The translations under genes were made by a program, and so were the position numbers. 64,000 nucleotides of DNA from Actinospica robiniae DSM 44927 (GTDB taxonomy: Bacteria > Actinomycetota > Actinomycetes > Streptomycetales > Catenulisporaceae): positions 8,166,154 to 8,230,153 of the forward strand of contig NZ_KI632511.1 of the NCBI RefSeq assembly GCF_000504285.1, read 5' to 3'. This document shows positions 9,334 to 16,717 of the stretch, in pieces; within the stretch, counting starts at the first letter, position 1, and the number at the start of each line of letters is the position of its first letter. The notes beneath the pieces were generated by a model that saw only the letters and a list, made by a program, of their open reading frames with translations, was not told the origin of the DNA and searched no databases.

Positions 9334-10470
9334 TCAGGACAGGAAGCTCGCGTACGGGCCGGTCAGGATCCCGTTCTTCTGGGTCTGGTTGAAGTCGCAG
9401 TTCGGGTAGTCGTACAGCGACGCGGACATGCAGGTGCCGTCGGTGGAGCTGGCGTCCGGCAGCCCGAAGGCGTGGCCGAGCTCGTGCACCATGCCGCCGT
9501 ACCAGCGATCCATCGGGCCGTTGATGCCGGCCGCGCCGTCCGCGTCGTGCCCGCTCAGCAGCACCCAGCCGGGCGCGCCGCCGCCGCCGGACACGTTCAC
9601 CTCCTCGGCGCTGACCTCAGCGACGATCAGCCACCGGCTGTCCGGGTTGCCCAGGCCGAACCGCTGCTGCAACTCGGTCTGCATGTTGGTGACCACGCAC
9701 CAGTAGCGATCGGCCGCCGCTGTGGCGGTGCAGTTGTTGTTGATGTACCAACTCGTGTCGTGCAGCCCGTCGACGGTCTCCACGACCGGGTTGTTGAGGG
9801 TGAACGTCTTGCCCAGCTGCGCCTTGTAGAAGCGCTGCGCTTCCTGCATGACGCTGGCGATGCCGTTCGGGTAAGCCTGGTTGAAGGCCACGTCGGTCGG
9901 CTTGAGCCAGAAGACGCGGACCGTCTTCGACGGCGGCGGTCCCGAGGGCGTGGCCGTGGCGGACGCCGACGCGGAAGCCGACGCGGAAGCGGAAGCCGAC
10001 GGCGACGGCGACGCGGTGCGGGTGGGTGACGCGCTCGCGCTGGGCGAGGCGCTGACGCTGCCGGTGCAGGCCACGCCGTTGAGGGTGAACGAGGCGGGCG
10101 CCGGGTTCGCGCTGTTGTTCCACGTCCCGTTGAAGCCGAAGCTCGCGCTGCCGCCGGTGGAGATGGCGCCGTTGTACGCCGCGTTGGTCACGCTGACCTG
10201 CGCGCCGGACTGGGTGACCGAACCGCTCCACAGCTGCGTGATCGTCTGGCCGGCGGTGAACGCCCAGCTCAGCGTCCAGCTGCTGACCGGGCTGCCGAGG
10301 TTGGTGACGGCCACGCTCGCTCCGAATCCGCCCGGCCATTGGCTGGAGACGGTGTAGGCGACTTGGCAGCCGGCCGCGGCCTGGGCCGGGGCGGTGACGG
10401 CCGCGCCGGCGCCGATCACGGCGAGCGCGATAGCCCCGGCCGTCCACGACCGGTGCTGAAGGATCCTCAT
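9334..10470 (-). CDS. secreted CBM2 / metzincin-like metalloprotease
   Basis: Exported 378-residue protein. A Sec signal peptide ends near TAPAQAAA (~residue 32). Residues ~33-137 form a family 2 carbohydrate-binding module (CQVAYTVSSQWPGGFGASVAVTN... with the two bracketing cysteines and exposed Trp residues). A Ser/Ala/Pro linker follows (~138-180), then a catalytic domain with the zinc motif HELGHAFGLPD (329-339) and a Met-turn-like TCMSAS at ~346-351. The third ligand is therefore Asp, as in snapalysin-type metzincins. The family reading is a protease or glycan-bound peptidase anchored on cellulose or chitin. A LacI-type operator lies about 60 nt upstream of the start and a strong terminator follows the gene. 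Confidence 0.85.
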   Translation of the reverse strand: MRILQHRSWTAGAIALAVIGAGAAVTAPAQAAAGCQVAYTVSSQWPGGFGASVAVTNLGSPVSSWTLSWAFTAGQTITQLWSGSVTQSGAQVSVTNAAYNGAISTGGSASFGFNGTWNNSANPAPASFTLNGVACTGSVSASPSASASPTRTASPSPSASASASASASASATATPSGPPPSKTVRVFWLKPTDVAFNQAYPNGIASVMQEAQRFYKAQLGKTFTLNNPVVETVDGLHDTSWYINNNCTATAAADRYWCVVTNMQTELQQRFGLGNPDSRWLIVAEVSAEEVNVSGGGGAPGWVLLSGHDADGAAGINGPMDRWYGGMVHELGHAFGLPDASSTDGTCMSASLYDYPNCDFNQTQKNGILTGPYASFLS

Positions 10471-10532
10471 CGAAAACCTCCGTTGCGGGTTCCAGGAGAC
10501 GCCGGGTCGCAGATCACGCGCGGAAAAATCGT

Positions 10533-10546
10533 GTTAACGCTCACAT
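10533..10546 (-). promoter_or_regulatory. LacI-family operator upstream of the CBM2-metalloprotease
   Basis: GTTAACGCTCACAT; with the base before it this reads TGTTAACGCTCACA, a near-palindrome of the LacI/GalR type centred on a CG step. It is about 63 nt upstream of the ATG at 10470. The identical 14-mer recurs in inverted orientation at 10788-10801. Confidence 0.6.
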
Positions 10547-10787
10547 AGTTCGCTGTGGGTCAGCGTTGCGCGATCGGATGGCACCTCGCCACGCATGCGC
10601 GGGACGAGTCGGCGCTCCGGTGATGGCGACAGCAGTGTCCGGCCAGGGCCGCGCGTGGGCAAGAAGTTCCGGTACCGCGCGGTGATGCGGGAGCCGATGG
10701 CCTGCCCGGACCCGCTCAGGCCGCGCCGCGGAACGTATGAAACTTTCGACGTGTTCGCTTCATCAGTATTGATGAGGATAAAGGCCG

Positions 10788-10801
10788 ATGTGAGCGTTAA
10801 C
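10788..10801 (+). promoter_or_regulatory. second, inverted LacI-family operator
   Basis: ATGTGAGCGTTAAC is the exact reverse complement of the 14-mer at 10533-10546. It lies about 50 nt upstream of the small plus-strand gene starting at 10851. The two sites are 241 nt apart, bracketing the divergent intergenic region. That region holds no other gene I can support. Confidence 0.6.
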
Positions 10802-10850
10802 GCGATGAAGTGAGCTACGCGTCAGAACATGTGTTCGATAAAGTGTCGCG

Positions 10851-11195
10851 GTGACATCCCTCCGCTTCGGCCCGCACCCGCCTGACCTCGTGCTCGCCGA
10901 TCCCAGCGGACGGGAGTACCGGACCAGCCGGACCGAGGTCGACTTCCAGATCGTGCGGTTCCGACTGGCCGGCCGCTGGACGCTCGGGGTGCTGCGCGGC
11001 TGGCGCCGGTCGCGGGACGGCGTGATCGTGCGGATCGAGACCCTGGACCGGGCCTCCGCGGAACCGAAGGCGCTGTGGTACCGCTTCGCCCCGGACGCGA
11101 TCGACCCGGTCCAGATCGAGACCCGCACCGGAGAACTGCGACTGGTTCCGCCCTGGGAGCGCACCGGCGGAGACCGGCGCTCGCGCTCGGCCTAA
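10851..11195 (+). CDS. hypothetical protein, 114 residues
   Basis: Small protein with no family I recognise. It is rich in beta-prone, charged segments (VDFQIVRFRLAGRWTLGVLRGW, GVIVRIETLD, ALWYRFAPDAI) and has no signal peptide or membrane segment, so it is probably a compact cytoplasmic beta domain. GTG 10851 is the only start that retains the conserved-looking N terminus. A LacI-type operator lies 50 nt upstream. Its stop is followed within about 10 nt by the left copy of the long inverted repeat element. Confidence 0.55.
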   Translation: MTSLRFGPHPPDLVLADPSGREYRTSRTEVDFQIVRFRLAGRWTLGVLRGWRRSRDGVIVRIETLDRASAEPKALWYRFAPDAIDPVQIETRTGELRLVPPWERTGGDRRSRSA

Positions 11196-11817: not shown

Positions 11818-13350
11818 GGCTCATCGAGCTTGACCGTGCTTGAGGTGTAGGGCGTTCGGTGGCCCGTAGATCAGGGTCTTGCTGAAGTAGAGGCGCCCGT
11901 GGCGCTCTGTGATCATTCGAGTTGCTGAGACAAGAGTGATCGCGAGGGAGCCACGGGCTTGGTCAACGATACGACATTGCTGTTCGGACTCGACGGGGTG
12001 CAGGTCGTGCGCGTCATGCTCGATGACGACGAGAATCCGATACTGGCACTGGTGACCGCGTCTGAGCAGGCCAGATGCTGTCCCGGCTGCGGGATGCGTT
12101 CACAGCACGCGCATTCGTGGGTGCGCACCCGGCCACGGGATCTGCCGGTGGCAGGGCGCCGGACGGCGCTGACGTGGACCAAGCGGCGTTGGCGCTGCCG
12201 CAACGCCGCCTGTGAGCGGGCGACCTTCACCGAGTCGGTCCCGCAGATCCCGCCGCGTGCCCGGCTGACCGGTCGGCTTCGCGCCTCGATCGGAGCGGCG
12301 GTGGCCGACCGCGGGCGCACCGTGATCCAGGCCGCCCGCGACCACGAGGTGTCCTGGCCGATCGCGCAGACGGCGTTCGCCGCCCACACCCGCCTCGCGC
12401 TACCGGCCGAGACACCGCAGGTCGCACGCCTGGGCATCGACGAGATCCGGCGCGGCAAGGCGCGCTTCCGGCTCGTGCCCGGCGAAGGCGGCGACGAGAA
12501 GTGGGAGGTCGTGGCCGATAAATGGCACGTCGGGATGGTCGATCTCGGCGGCGGCGCCGGACTGCTCGGGCAGGTCGAGGGCCGCACCGCCGAGACGCTC
12601 TCGGCGTGGATCGAGGCGCAGAGCCCGCAATGGCGAGCCGGAGTCCAGGTCGTGGCGATCGACATGTGCACCGTGTTCAAGGCCGCGATCCGCACCAGCC
12701 TGCCGCACGCGGCGCTGGTGGTCGACCGCTTCCACGTCGCGCAACTGGCGAACACAGCGCTGACCGAGGTACGCCGCCGCGTCACCGTCCAGGCGCGCGG
12801 ACGCCGAGGACGCAAGGGCAACCGGGAGTGGGAGCTGAGAAACAGGCTCACCCGCGCCGGCACACGGATGCACGCGAAGCACCTGGACCCGATGATCGAC
12901 GACCTCCGGGCACTGCCCGCGAAGATCGGTATACCGATCCTCAAGGCATGGAACGTCAAGGAAGACCTGATGGACCTGCTCGCACTCCACGGCACACACC
13001 CGGACCGGGCACAGATCAGCGCTCTGCTGATCAGGTTCTACGAGAACGCCGCCGCCTGCGGCCTGCCGGAGATCACGCGGCTGGCCGGCACCGTCTCGAC
13101 CTGGTGGCCGCAGATCCTCGCCGCGATCACCACCGGCGTGACGAACGCGGGCTCCGAGGGCACCAACCGCGTGATCAAAACCGACGCCCGCACCGCCTAC
13201 GGCTACCGCAACCCCGCCAACCAGCGCCTACGCGCACGCGCCGCCACCACCCGCCGCGCCCGTGGACACCTCACCACCCACACCAGCGGACCCCACGCCC
13301 AACCCAGACGCCGCTCAAAAGCCTGACAGCACGGTCAAGCTCGATGAGCC
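11818..13350 (+). mobile_element. complete ISL3-family insertion sequence
   Basis: A 1533-bp element with perfect 23-bp terminal inverted repeats at 11818-11840 and 13328-13350 (outer bases GGCTCATCGAGC). It is flanked by an exact 8-bp duplication GTCATGCA (11810-11817 and 13351-13358), which is the ISL3 target-duplication length. It contains one intact transposase. Perfect ends and duplication suggest recent insertion. Confidence 0.95.
11959..13326 (+). CDS. ISL3 family transposase
   Basis: Full-length 455-residue transposase. The N-terminal zinc-binding domain (CCPGCGMRSQHAHSW then RWRCRNAACERATF) is followed by an HTH and a DDE catalytic core with the family blocks LGIDEI, VAIDMCTVFKAAI, VVDRFHV and GTNRVIKT. 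The start is the TTG at 11959 with GAGGGAG about 10 nt upstream. The stop is just inside the right inverted repeat. The frame is intact, so the enzyme is probably active. Confidence 0.93.
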   Translation: MVNDTTLLFGLDGVQVVRVMLDDDENPILALVTASEQARCCPGCGMRSQHAHSWVRTRPRDLPVAGRRTALTWTKRRWRCRNAACERATFTESVPQIPPRARLTGRLRASIGAAVADRGRTVIQAARDHEVSWPIAQTAFAAHTRLALPAETPQVARLGIDEIRRGKARFRLVPGEGGDEKWEVVADKWHVGMVDLGGGAGLLGQVEGRTAETLSAWIEAQSPQWRAGVQVVAIDMCTVFKAAIRTSLPHAALVVDRFHVAQLANTALTEVRRRVTVQARGRRGRKGNREWELRNRLTRAGTRMHAKHLDPMIDDLRALPAKIGIPILKAWNVKEDLMDLLALHGTHPDRAQISALLIRFYENAAACGLPEITRLAGTVSTWWPQILAAITTGVTNAGSEGTNRVIKTDARTAYGYRNPANQRLRARAATTRRARGHLTTHTSGPHAQPRRRSKA

Positions 13351-13589
13351 GTCATGCATCGTCCTGGTGGGATCCACTCCGATTACAGACCTCGCATAGG
13401 AATCCCGCGAGCCAGCCGCGCCAGATCCGGAAGAATTCCGCATCACCCTGTTCCGGCATCCCGATCCTCGATCCGTGCGAAGGGTCGGTGGTCTGGTCGC
13501 GCTTGATGTCGAAATTCTCCATCGCCCTGGTCCGATCCACCCACTGCTCATGCGATGCGCGGAATTGTGTGGCCCGATCGCGCTCCGAG
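13351..13589 (+). repeat. degenerate ~80-nt tandem repeats, right part
   Basis: Continuation of the array interrupted by the ISL3 element. Units start near 13433 (GAATTCCGCATCACC) and 13511 (GAAATTCTCCATCGCC), with a more diverged one at 13351. The 13433 unit shares CGATCCTCGATCCGTGCGAA and GGTCGCGC.TGATGT with the unit at 11729. It ends at the target duplication of the IS1182-family element. No gene is seen here. Confidence 0.55.
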
Positions 13590-15375
13590 GACTCTGCTGG
13601 CGAAGTCGTGGTCTGATTTTGTGGCAGGCTGGGTGGTCGTGTCGGCTGGGTGATTGAGGGGCTTGTGGTGTTTCGTCCTGTGCGGGCTGGTGGGGTTCCG
13701 GCGGCGACGGCCGCGTTGGCGTGGGCGGTGCATCCGAAGGGCACGGGCGAGATGCGGGTGCGTGATGCGCTCGGGCCGTTGTTCGCCGATGAGGATTTCG
13801 AGCACGAGCGGTTCGCCGGGATGTTTGCGGCGCTCGGCCGGCCCGCGCTTTCGCCGGGGTTGCTGGCGATGGTCACGGTGTTGCAGTTCCTGCACAACCT
13901 CTCGGACCGGGAGGCGGTGGTGGCGATGGCGGACCGGATCTCGTGGAAGTACGCGCTGGGCCTGGATGTGGCTGAGACCGGGTTCGACGCGTCGGTGCTG
14001 GCCGAGTTCCGGGCCCGGCTGGCCGAGCCGGGGCGCGCGGACGCGCTGCTCGATACCGTGCTGGACAAGCTCAAGGCGGCCGGGCTGGTGCGCGCGGGCG
14101 GGCGGGCGCGTACGGACTCGACGCATGTGCTCGCGGCGGTGCGCTCGCTGGGCCGGGTCGAGATGCTCGGCGAGAGTGTGCGTGCGGCGCTCGAGGAGAT
14201 CGCGCGGGTCGCTCCGGAGCGGGTCGTGCCGCTGCTGGCGCCGGGGTGGGAGGAGCGGTACGGGCGCAAGGTCGAGACCTCCCGGCTGATCGGGCGCGGG
14301 CGGGGCAAGGCCACGATGGAGGAGTTGGCCGGGCGGTTCGGCGCGGACGGCTCGCTGCTGCTCGAGACGCTTAAGGCGGACCCCACGGCCGGGTGGGTCC
14401 TTAGGCTGCCGCAGGTACGGCTGCTCGCCCAGGTCTGGGAGCAGCACTTCGAGCGGAGTGAGGGCGGCGGATGGGTGCTCAAAGCCGTCACCGACCTGCC
14501 GCCCGCGGCCGAGTTGCCGATCTCTCCGTACGACCCGGATGCCCGCTACGCGGTCAAACGCGCGAGCGGGTGGGAGGGAGGCAAGGTCCACCTGACCGAG
14601 TCCTGCGACGAGGATCTCCCGCACCTGGTCACGGATGTCGCCACGAGCGCGGCGACCGTGCAGGATTCCGCGCAGACAACTGATATCCAGGAACGGCTCC
14701 TGGCGCGCGGGCTGGGCCCGGGCGTGCATGTGATGGACGCCGGGTATCCCACCGCCGCGAACCTCATCGCCGCGGCCGGCCACGGCATCACCCTGATCGC
14801 GCCGGTCACCGTCTCGAGCGGGCGGGGCGCGAAGACCGGGACCTTCAGCCCGGGCGAGTTCGAGATCGACTGGGACACCGGGCGCGCCCGCTGCCCGGGC
14901 GAGAAGGTGAGCAACCCGATGCGCGGGCAGAAGAACGGGCTGGTCGCCTTCAGCTTCTCCCGCCGCGACTGCACACCCTGCCCGCTACGCACCGCCTGTC
15001 TGAGCGCGCCGGCCCCTCGGCCACGCGTGCTGGTCGTTCACCCCCGCGAGCCCTACGAGGCCCGCATGAACGCGATCCGCACCCAGCACACCCCAGAATG
15101 GCAGAAGGTTTATAACCAGCGCGCCGGTATCGAGGGCACCATCTCCCAGGCCGTACGCATCAGCGATCTACGCCACTCCCGCTACCGCGGGCTCCCCAAA
15201 AACCACCTCCAAAACGTCCTGACCGGCATCGCGATCAACATCAGACGCCTCGGCGCGCACTACGCGCCCACCCAGACCAAACCCCGCCGACCCACCCGTA
15301 TACAAGCCCTCTACGACACCCACCACATCGGCAAACCCGCCTAACCAAACCACCCCCGACTTCGCCAGCAGAGTC
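13590..15375 (+). mobile_element. complete IS1182-family insertion sequence
   Basis: About 1786 bp, bounded by 19-20-bp inverted repeats (left from 13590: GACTCTGCTGGCGAAGTCG; right at 15357-15375). It is flanked by a 7-bp direct repeat CTCCGAG (13583-13589 and 15376-15382). The exact edge is ambiguous by one or two bases because the duplication and the repeat end share bases. One intact transposase gene lies inside. Confidence 0.9.
13650..15344 (+). CDS. IS1182 family transposase
   Basis: Intact 564-residue DDE transposase. It has the N-terminal block LGPLFADEDFEHERFAGMF, the DUF772-like segment MVTVLQFLHNLSDREAV...ALG and RTDSTHVLAAVRSL. The catalytic region follows: VHLTESCDED, HVMDAGYPTAANL, then the cysteine-rich CTPCPLRTAC and the YNQRAGIEGTISQAVR glutamate block. 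The start GTG is at 13650; an in-frame GTG shortly after is also possible. No frameshift or stop was seen. Confidence 0.93.
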   Translation: MIEGLVVFRPVRAGGVPAATAALAWAVHPKGTGEMRVRDALGPLFADEDFEHERFAGMFAALGRPALSPGLLAMVTVLQFLHNLSDREAVVAMADRISWKYALGLDVAETGFDASVLAEFRARLAEPGRADALLDTVLDKLKAAGLVRAGGRARTDSTHVLAAVRSLGRVEMLGESVRAALEEIARVAPERVVPLLAPGWEERYGRKVETSRLIGRGRGKATMEELAGRFGADGSLLLETLKADPTAGWVLRLPQVRLLAQVWEQHFERSEGGGWVLKAVTDLPPAAELPISPYDPDARYAVKRASGWEGGKVHLTESCDEDLPHLVTDVATSAATVQDSAQTTDIQERLLARGLGPGVHVMDAGYPTAANLIAAAGHGITLIAPVTVSSGRGAKTGTFSPGEFEIDWDTGRARCPGEKVSNPMRGQKNGLVAFSFSRRDCTPCPLRTACLSAPAPRPRVLVVHPREPYEARMNAIRTQHTPEWQKVYNQRAGIEGTISQAVRISDLRHSRYRGLPKNHLQNVLTGIAINIRRLGAHYAPTQTKPRRPTRIQALYDTHHIGKPA

Positions 15376-15490
15376 CTCCGAGGGGAATTCCTACGCCGTT
15401 TTCGGCCACGCCCCTGACGCCAGCTGGCCAGCCACTCCGTCCATCACCCCTCGCGTCACAAGTCCCGATTCCCCGTACGCCTCTATGCTA

Positions 15491-16717
15491 GTGCCGTATC
15501 AGGCTACATTCACCCGGTCGAGCTTGTTCGACCGGGTGGCTTGGCGTTCGGGCCCTGATCCGTGAGACTGGGTCGGTGGCCGAGCGTGTCAGAGTGCGTG
15601 AGATTGACGATGACGAGGGAAAACGCCTGGTGCGGATCGTGCGCCGGGGCACCGGGTCGGTGGTGACCTGGCGGCGGGCGCAGATGGTTCTGCTCTCAGC
15701 GCAGAACATGGACGTCGCCGGCATCGCGCGGGTCGCGTTCACCAGCGAGGACCACGTACGGGATGTGATCCACAACTTCAACGCGGACGGGTTCGACTCC
15801 CTCTACCCGCGCTACCGCGGCGGTCACCCGCCGAAGTTCACCCTCCCGCAGCGCCGGGAGATCAAGAAGATTGCCAAGACCAAGCCGGCCGAGCACGGCC
15901 TGCCCTTCTCGACCTGGAGCCTGTCCAAACTGGCGGACTTCCTGGTCGCCGAGGGGGTGGTCGACGACATCAGCCACGAGGGCCTGCGCATCCTGCTCCG
16001 CGAGGAAGGCGTCACCTTTCAACGCCTGAAGACGTGGAAGGGCTCGACCGACCCGGAGTTCAAGCAGAAGAAAGCCCGGATCGAGCGACTGTACGCGATC
16101 GCCGACGGCGAGGCCGAGCCGCGTGACGGCGAGCCCGAGATCGTGATCTGCATCGACGAGTTCGGGCCGCTCAATCTGCAACCGCGCCCGGGCCGAGCAT
16201 GGGCTGCGATCAGCGGAAACGCGAAGGAACCTGGACGCGAGCCCCGCCCGCGCCTGCGCGCGACCTACCACCGCACCGGCGGCGTGCGCCACCTGTTCGC
16301 CGCCTACGACCTCGGCCGCGACCGGCTCTACGGGCACGTACGGCCGAGAAAGACCCGCACCCGATTCCTCGAGTTCTGCCGGTACATACGCAGCCTCTAC
16401 CCGCGCGAAATGCGCATGGCGATCATCGTGGACAACTTCTCCCCGCACCTGAGCACCCGGCGTGACCAGAAAGTCGGGACATGGGCGAAGGCGAACAACG
16501 TCGAGCTCGCCTACACCCCGACCAACAGCTCCTGGCTCAACCGGATCGAAGCCCAGTTCACAGCCCTGCGCTACTTCGCTCTCGACGGCACCGACCACCA
16601 CACCCACCAGGAACAGGGCAGCATGATCCGCCGCTACATCGCCTGGCGGAACCGCAACGCCGATAACCGCGAACTACGCCGCATCGTCAACCGGGCGAAC
16701 GTAGCCTGATACGGCAC
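15491..16717 (+). mobile_element. complete IS630-family insertion sequence
   Basis: About 1227 bp with inverted ends (left GTGCCGTATCAGGCTAC from 15491; right its reverse complement ending at 16717). It is flanked by TA on both sides (15489-15490 and 16718-16719), the obligatory IS630 target. The stop codon of the transposase lies inside the right inverted repeat. Confidence 0.92.
15576..16709 (+). CDS. IS630 family transposase
   Basis: Complete 377-residue transposase in a single frame. An N-terminal HTH region (MDVAGIARVAFTSEDHVRDVIHNFN) precedes a winged helix (WSLSKLADFLV), then the DDE domain with VICIDEFGPL, IIVDNFSPH and TPTNSSWLNRIEAQF as the three acidic blocks. GTG 15576 is the likely start. 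Many IS630 relatives need a frameshift; this copy does not. Confidence 0.93.
   Translation: MAERVRVREIDDDEGKRLVRIVRRGTGSVVTWRRAQMVLLSAQNMDVAGIARVAFTSEDHVRDVIHNFNADGFDSLYPRYRGGHPPKFTLPQRREIKKIAKTKPAEHGLPFSTWSLSKLADFLVAEGVVDDISHEGLRILLREEGVTFQRLKTWKGSTDPEFKQKKARIERLYAIADGEAEPRDGEPEIVICIDEFGPLNLQPRPGRAWAAISGNAKEPGREPRPRLRATYHRTGGVRHLFAAYDLGRDRLYGHVRPRKTRTRFLEFCRYIRSLYPREMRMAIIVDNFSPHLSTRRDQKVGTWAKANNVELAYTPTNSSWLNRIEAQFTALRYFALDGTDHHTHQEQGSMIRRYIAWRNRNADNRELRRIVNRANVA

Follow-up and report, generated by a model that had tools for sequence, protein, structure and literature searches.

Extensins are rich in arabinosylated hydroxyproline and are hard to digest. Among the described enzymes that act on them, HypBA2 (GH121), which is grouped with HypBA1 and HypAA (Bifidobacterium longum, Xanthomonas), is reported to free arabinobiose from Ara3-Hyp of extensin-type glycoproteins (PMC7263609; PMC6085000). 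Beside xehypAA, the available part of the latter paper mentions only a prolyl-oligopeptidase pseudogene (PMC6085000). For the protein part, the functional precedent is Svx of Pectobacterium, a secreted metallopeptidase reported to cut extensin and to recognise arabinan chains (PMC13164431). Glycan-dependent cleavage is represented by two mucin-directed enzymes, OgpA, the O-glycopeptidase of Akkermansia muciniphila (PDB 6z2d/6z2o/6z2q), and Amuc_1438, a Tn-antigen O-glycopeptidase (PDB 8dek/8df2). In the crystal structure of OgpA, W199 is positioned around the substrate's GalNAc and Gal (PMC7518263), and Amuc_1438 is described as having a putative carbohydrate-binding module and a PF12044 match that spans about 30 residues around the motif (PMC9513282). 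At the level of regulation, AraQ, a LacI-family arabinose regulator of Actinobacteria including bifidobacteria, is reported to control araBDA and sugar transport (PMC5928203). The box CGAAACTTTCG has been tied to Streptomyces xylan metabolism and is bound by BxlR (PMC4743123), and CsnR binds the related box AGGAAANTTTCCT (PMC6097792).

The gene described here lies in the window, i.e., the whole analyzed stretch of 64 kb, and encodes a protein that combines a CBM2 with a metzincin-type domain. We regard it as moderately probable that it is a secreted zinc protease of an L-arabinose/plant-wall regulon, which sits with its CBM2 on cellulose and cuts arabinosylated hydroxyproline-rich wall glycoproteins, plausibly in a glycan-dependent manner; the identity of the substrate and the dependence on a glycan are what we infer. 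Compared by description, it resembles Svx as a secreted bacterial metallopeptidase, with extensin as the reported substrate of Svx and the proposed one here. Svx differs in that it belongs to the gluzincins, has an acyltransferase-like domain and comes from a plant pathogen, and the available part of the Svx paper mentions no link to an arabinose regulon (PMC13164431). Three points go beyond the preliminary description of the locus: the L-arabinose regulon, the resemblance of the active site to O-glycopeptidases, and the link between the relatives and enzymes for Hyp-linked arabinan.

Protein layout and carbohydrate-binding module

The preliminary description had recognized a CBM2, a Ser/Ala linker and an HELGHAFGLPD protease at 9334-10470. 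The coordinates are right, and the domains were confirmed with PF00553 and by alignment; the strand, which had not been given, is the minus strand. The features are as follows:

9334..10470, minus strand: protease gene, complete, secreted CBM2-metzincin of 378 amino acids (open reading frame and translation, ATG at 10470)
10375..10470, minus strand: Sec-type signal peptide, residues 1-32, cleavage near AQA|AAGC (translation, judged by eye)
10066..10368, minus strand: CBM2, residues 35-135, with the aromatics W45, W81 and Y99 (PF00553; alignment with Cellulomonas CBM2a)
9937..10059, minus strand: Ser/Ala/Pro/Thr linker, residues 138-178 (residue composition)
9337..9936, minus strand: metzincin-type catalytic domain, residues 179-378, nearest to OgpA/Amuc_1438 (profile search and fold comparisons)
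9502..9504, minus strand: Trp323, opposite the glycan-pocket Trp199 of OgpA (ungapped WYGGM-HELGH alignment; role of Trp199 as reported in PMC7518263)
9454..9486, minus strand: zinc motif HELGHAFGLPD, H329-D339 (translation and alignment)
9427..9429, minus strand: Met348, candidate for the Met-turn (invariant in 17 of 17 sequences)

A GGAGG ribosome-binding site is present 5' of the ATG at 10477-10481. The genome from which the window derives (G000, hereafter the own genome) is a single contig of 9.92 Mb. A genome search found the catalytic domain once, and the CBM2-bearing N-terminal half matched 52 further places. The binding module is thus widespread in the own genome, and it is the protease that is the unusual part of the fusion. 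Among open-licence papers, judged by title and the start of the abstract, none was recognized that describes this protease. A viral origin was rejected (nine viral-contig stretches matched a pattern, none was confirmed), as was a plasmid origin (eight plasmid records matched, and the best place in each was CBM2 only).

PF00553 covers residues 35-135 over all model positions (1-101 of 101) with an E-value of 9.4e-31 and 106.6 bits, compared to a gathering threshold of 24. W17, W54 and W72, which we take to be the cellulose-binding aromatics of Cellulomonas CBM2a, align with W45, W81 and Y99 of the window protein, i.e., with two Trp and one Tyr. Across 11 CBM2-bearing sequences the first two positions are always Trp, and the third is Trp in nine and Tyr in two. 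The preliminary description had held that a module lacking its binding tryptophans on modelling would speak against its proposal; by sequence alignment, without modelling, W45 and W81 are kept and a Tyr takes the third place. Binding of the module to cellulose is accordingly a prediction from its residues. The linker contains 16 Ser, 12 Ala, 6 Pro and 4 Thr in 41 residues.

The anchor is interchangeable. Among 17 sequences (the window protein and its relatives), 11 have a CBM2 and six a RICIN-like module, the latter being assigned by similarity to RICIN-bearing neighbour proteins; in the Streptomyces proteases this module shares 55-59% identity with the RICIN part of the GH43 enzyme in genome G014. 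Three Streptomyces genomes (G783, G771, G1004) have protease copies without room for a binding module. A carbohydrate-binding part is thus kept across relatives but swapped between CBM2 and RICIN-like, and we count this in favor of the reading preferred above; the three copies that have no module speak against it.

The catalytic domain

A catalytic profile was built from the 17 sequences, i.e., from the window protein and 16 relatives that are 66-84% identical to it. H329, E330, H333, G336, D339 and M348 are invariant in all of them, and the metzincin signature HExxHxxGxx(H/D) with a downstream Met is present (H329-D339, M348). A motif of this H329/H333/D339 type is predicted to bind zinc. No peptidase model of Pfam or NCBIfam reaches its cut-off on the catalytic domain of the window protein. 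Peptidase M6 (immune inhibitor A) was rejected (TIGR03296, the best-scoring NCBIfam peptidase model, 30.1 versus 110.8 bits; PF05547, 13.5 versus 22 bits, and 15.7 with the domain alone). The same holds for the reprolysin-like M12, M66 and M54 models of Pfam, which gave 16.2 versus 22.4, 15.3 versus 27, 13.7 versus 20.6 and 11.4 versus 24.4 bits with the window protein, and slightly higher scores, still under gathering, with the catalytic domain alone. PF12044 makes weak contact with 17 of 17 members.

When the profile was compared with solved structures, OgpA was the best match (E 1.6e-4), but only about 40 residues around the motif were aligned; MMP16 (E 0.017) ranked above Amuc_1438 (E 0.21). 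Within the aligned part, K198-W199-YGGMAHELGH of OgpA corresponds without gaps to R322-W323-YGGMVHELGH of the window protein, and W323 is invariant in all 17 sequences. The glycan pocket of OgpA consists of Y116, F166, W199 and Y236. W199 is matched by W323, and no counterpart could be assigned to Y116 and F166. Y236 follows the Met-turn residue Met231 at a distance of five residues, as the invariant Y353 follows Met348; this pairing is made by spacing only and differs from the HMMER alignment.

OgpA thus has the WYGGMxHELGH helix, the Trp and a Met after the zinc motif in common with the protease. It differs in its third zinc ligand, a His, in the distance from this ligand to the Met (16 residues, compared to 9 in the protease), and in its mucin context, whereas the protease has a CBM2/RICIN architecture and an actinomycete and plant context. 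Amuc_1438 differs in having a Tyr instead of the Trp, a His as third zinc ligand, and a mucin substrate. At the third ligand position all 17 sequences have an Asp (Asp339) in place of the third His of the OgpA/Amuc_1438 type; the protease may work as an O-glycopeptidase of this type, yet it is not assigned as a member.

Two AlphaFold models, made from four sequences, are of low confidence (pLDDT 57 and 59, pTM 0.60 and 0.61), and metzincins rank top with both. OgpA occupied the first three rows of a Foldseek search, the best with an E-value of 0.043 and thus not significant, with nothing at E <= 0.001 for this low-confidence model. In the two VIA comparisons, which likewise used models of pLDDT below 60, the top five and top six rows were Amuc_1438/OgpA, with Z values of 6.7 and 6.6 (next family 5.6) and of 8.1 and 7.8 (next family 7.1), respectively; Z near 8 may mean merely a common arrangement, and fold comparisons were used as support only. 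Amuc_1438 took the first row in both runs (Z 6.7 over 158 and Z 8.1 over 156 residues), and OgpA took rows 2-4 and 2-5. Because the domain resembles OgpA/Amuc_1438, including the glycan-packing aromatic on the active-site helix, it probably recognizes a glycosylated residue beside the cut.

Operators and the probable L-arabinose regulon

The promoter of the protease gene contains three elements:

10532..10545, minus strand: LacI-type arabinose operator TGTGAGCGTTAACA, 61 bp before the start codon (genome pattern search)
10739..10747: palindrome GAAACTTTC, similar to the xylan-control box CGAAACTTTCG of Streptomyces (pattern search)
10789..10802, plus strand: second operator copy TGTGAGCGTTAACG, one mismatch, 257 bp further upstream (window pattern search)

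A search of the window with up to two mismatches gave three rows, two of which represent one place on both strands; shuffled windows gave a mean of 0.30, and 1 of 100 reached three. In the 9.9 Mb of the own genome, the pattern TGTKAGCGYTAACA has 15 sites, compared to none with the control. The 14 sites outside the protease promoter belong to 13 promoters:

1147164, 1265041, 1830044, 1837110, 1922926/1922943, 2865309, 9326040 and 9772155: GH54 alpha-L-arabinofuranosidases; at 1265041 a GH10 gene lies on the other side
1842422: GH62-CBM2, with an adjoining divergent LacI gene
386630: PF07944 enzyme of the beta-L-arabinofuranosidase type
9853838: ribulokinase, beside L-arabinose isomerase
535595: GDSL esterase-CBM2
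1849214: alpha-galactosidase

Several of these sites lie inside called frames because gene calling used the earliest possible start codon; at 386630 and 9853838, which were inspected, a later start codon fits. Eleven of the 13 promoters front arabinose-directed genes (eight GH54, the GH62, the PF07944 enzyme and the ribulokinase), and the remaining two front the esterase and the alpha-galactosidase. Among solved structures the PF07944 enzyme matches 5opj best, an entry listed under differing names; the next catalytic matches are the beta-L-arabinofuranosidases 8k7y/8k7x. GH54 enzymes (PF09206) have 20 matches in the own genome, seemingly many, eight of them behind the operator. Judged by the genes behind its other copies, the operator of the protease is probably part of an L-arabinose regulon. 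A LacI-type operator and sugar control of the protease had been suggested before; the operator is real, and it can now be assigned to an L-arabinose regulon, with a LacI-type protein as the predicted repressor and arabinose as the predicted inducer. A 114-aa frame at 10851-11195 (plus strand), without a Pfam match up to E 1, starts 48 bases past the second operator copy and may be a divergent member of the regulon or no gene.

The same pattern recurs upstream of some relatives. A wider version, TGTKARCGYTMACA, was searched up to 350 bp upstream of 17 proteases including that of the window. It is perfect in four (window, G331, G528, G511) and present with up to two mismatches in six (adding G513 and G477), compared to 0.5% of 3400 mononucleotide-shuffled stretches; the other 11 promoters have no operator within two mismatches. 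A set of 14 stretches of relatives (11 Streptomyces, three of the G331 family) has none within one mismatch. These absences count against the preferred reading. A random-stretch control (6000 stretches of 350 bp from the fetched loci) gave 4.8% perfect sites and 7.0% with up to two mismatches, but is inflated because most of these loci were chosen for their operators, and the shuffles and genome-wide counts were used instead. Operator sites were found in seven of eight genomes, among the matches listed (none in G500; controls 0). All 17 G511 sites, in 14 regions, and six of the seven G528 sites were covered region by region. In G511, eight of 13 non-protease regions are of the arabinose type. 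Their operators precede araB (ribulokinase) and a LacI gene (55% identity with the one that accompanies GH62 in the own genome), a sugar-binding protein gene that adjoins araA/araD (L-arabinose isomerase, ribulose-phosphate epimerase), two GH54 genes, three PF07944 genes and, at a distance of 441 bp, one GH62 gene. In the remaining five regions the operator precedes GH10, GH43-CBM4_9, GH95, a GDSL esterase-RICIN and a RICIN protein without assignment. The set looks like an arabinose regulon plus some wider hemicellulose genes, and by its gene content it recalls AraQ, with LacI-family control of ara genes and sugar transport.

The second promoter element, searched as GAAANTTTC, has a single match in the 64 kb of the window (10739-10747), compared to an expectation of 0.03 and to presence in 3 of 100 shuffles. 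It lies 99-100 bases from the operator before the protease in G511, G528 and G331. It also precedes the protease of G012, where the operator is absent, and is present in the gap between the protease and GH121 genes of G477. In total, 24 matches were found in 593,498 bases of partly overlapping loci that had been picked for operators or relatives. Palindromes of this type were also seen about 100-285 bases from many arabinose operators in the own genome, G511, G528 and G331. The spacing to the operator hints at a two-input hemicellulose promoter, and since a xylan-type box and an arabinose operator are combined, the protease may answer to both controls.

These regulatory data bear on the main rival explanation, a general secreted protease of an arabinoxylan/hemicellulose regulon that would digest any wall-embedded protein, independent of glycans, for nitrogen and for access to polysaccharides. 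In the own genome the operator neighbours are mostly arabinoxylan-type enzymes, the G511 operator also precedes GH10, GH43 and GH95 genes, and the xylan-type box GAAACTTTC is part of the promoter. The GH54, GH62 and GH10 neighbours would indicate arabinoxylan equally with a glycoprotein, which counts against an extensin substrate. We nevertheless consider a glycan-independent protease unlikely, in view of the O-glycopeptidase-like active-site helix with its invariant Trp and of the gene linkage described below.

The regulon also bears on the kind of wall. The preliminary description had proposed peptide-glycan material of plant or fungal walls as the target. The plant part is favored by the arabinose regulon and by the GH121 and GH43 genes of the relatives; the fungal or chitinous part is dropped, as no chitin enzyme was found among the proximal genes run for the 13 other operator promoters of the own genome.

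Linkage of the relatives to GH43 and GH121

The first kin search detected relatives of the protease in 3 of 59 other genomes. Relatives are also present in 10 of the 297 genomes searched from the G331 family and in 14 of the 392 from the genus to which G014 belongs (one partial, one broken). Further relatives are present in Dactylosporangium siamense, Actinoplanes palleronii and an Actinomycetales MAG. Weak matches in G152 (E 6.7e-4) and G231 (E 3.6e-4) were not counted.

In six Streptomyces genomes (G014, G021, G773, G881, G891, G1003) the gene order is GH121, GH43 and protease, the latter 4 bases after GH43. The best solved match of the GH43 of G014 is the alpha-L-arabinofuranosidase 3akf, and its GH121 matches the beta-L-arabinobiosidase HypBA2 (PDB 6m5a, E 2e-181; NCBIfam HypBA2, E 3.8e-247, below cut-off). 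Five of the six clusters have a LacI gene next to them, and several have a gene for a solute-binding protein. GH121, GH43 and a sugar-binding transporter protein, as in the HypBA1/HypBA2/HypAA system, recur in these clusters, which differ from that system by the addition of the metzincin protease. In G477 GH121 lies next to the protease in divergent orientation, without GH43. In both G513 and G528 a perfect operator is followed by a GH43-GH121 pair, and in G331 the operator overlaps the 5' end of the GH121 frame, which encodes the signal peptide. Two operator-like sites lie within this part (L177:2945-2988), where TTA codons are used, a rarity in genomes of this kind.

In a comparison of 80 genomes, GH121 was seen in 21 of the 25 that have the protease and in 4 of the 55 that lack it (Fisher p 1.2e-11, which overstates independence because the genomes are related). 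By group, the values for positive versus negative genomes are 12/13 versus 1/24 in Streptomyces, 9/10 versus 3/19 in the G331 family, and 0/2 versus 0/12 in the family of the window. The negative genomes (12, 24 and 19 of the window family, Streptomyces and the G331 family, respectively) were taken in listed order and not randomly. G1022 (partial match, 8% contaminated) was excluded from the positives and the broken copy of G769 was included, while D. siamense, A. palleronii and the Actinomycetales MAG stand outside the count. The single GH121-positive, protease-negative Streptomyces genome, G671, is 79% complete. The own genome has no GH121 match at E <= 1e-20 and has the PF07944 enzyme under the operator instead; G012, G500 and G769 are also protease-positive without GH121.

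As relatives adjoin enzymes that strip arabinose from wall glycoproteins, the protease probably acts on those proteins. The tight clustering with GH43 and GH121 in Streptomyces and the co-occurrence of 21/25 versus 4/55 argue against the general protease, for which the lack of GH121 in the own genome speaks. Because of this lack, an extensin substrate is deduced for the window protein from its relatives, together with the PF07944 enzyme under the same operator. Arabinogalactan proteins, which bear arabinose within hydroxyproline-linked glycans, would be the chief candidates if the target were an arabinose-bearing glycoprotein other than extensin, and the alpha-galactosidase and the GH54 enzymes of the regulon would suit them. 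This seems improbable, as HypBA2 of GH121 is reported to act on Ara3-Hyp of the extensin type (PMC7263609; PMC6085000). Still more remote, to the point of being very improbable, is a processing protease that trims the linkers of the host's own cellulose-bound, CBM-bearing glycoside hydrolases. The co-regulated enzymes do have the same CBM2 and a similar linker, and the match of some own-genome glycoside hydrolase genes extends into the linker, but the Streptomyces copy is part of a substrate-specific cluster and the domain is rare (14/392 genomes).

For the preferred reading, a wall protease directed at arabinosylated glycoproteins, the following sequence of events can be proposed. A LacI-type arabinose repressor would leave the operator in the presence of plant arabinan, arabinoxylan or arabinosylated glycoprotein, and the protease gene would then be expressed together with the arabinofuranosidases. 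The CBM2 would anchor the enzyme to cellulose, the metzincin domain would cleave extensin-like arabinosylated hydroxyproline-rich glycoproteins of the wall, and alpha- and beta-L-arabinofuranosidases would remove the sugars. If this is true, an arabinose-controlled, GH43/GH121-clustered protease would give a protein-cutting step to the degradation of Hyp-linked arabinan. A bolder proposal, which we make tentatively and hold to be less than even in likelihood, is an actinomycete family of metzincin O-glycopeptidases that require a plant O-glycan (arabinosylated Hyp or the alpha-galactosyl-Ser of extensin), are anchored by CBM2 or RICIN and induced by L-arabinose, and form the plant-wall counterpart of gut mucinases. 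Already under the preferred reading, O-glycopeptidase-like metzincins would seem not to be limited to animal mucus, and the enzyme might be a tool for mapping plant O-glycoproteins.

Some further observations concern single loci. In G769 (L142, 6569-7147 and beyond) the protease is represented by two partial adjoining matches and GH121 is absent; both may have decayed together. Three consecutive transposase genes (ISL3, DUF772/DDE_Tnp_1_6 and DDE_3) occupy 11959-16709 of the window, past the protease promoter, and no link to the protease is made. In G331 the protease is followed by a CBM2 protein of 469 aa (L058:9973-11382, minus strand) that has no second Pfam domain at E 1e-4, and in the Actinomycetales MAG a DUF6055-CBM2 protein is encoded directly upstream of the protease (L015:52-2313, plus strand).
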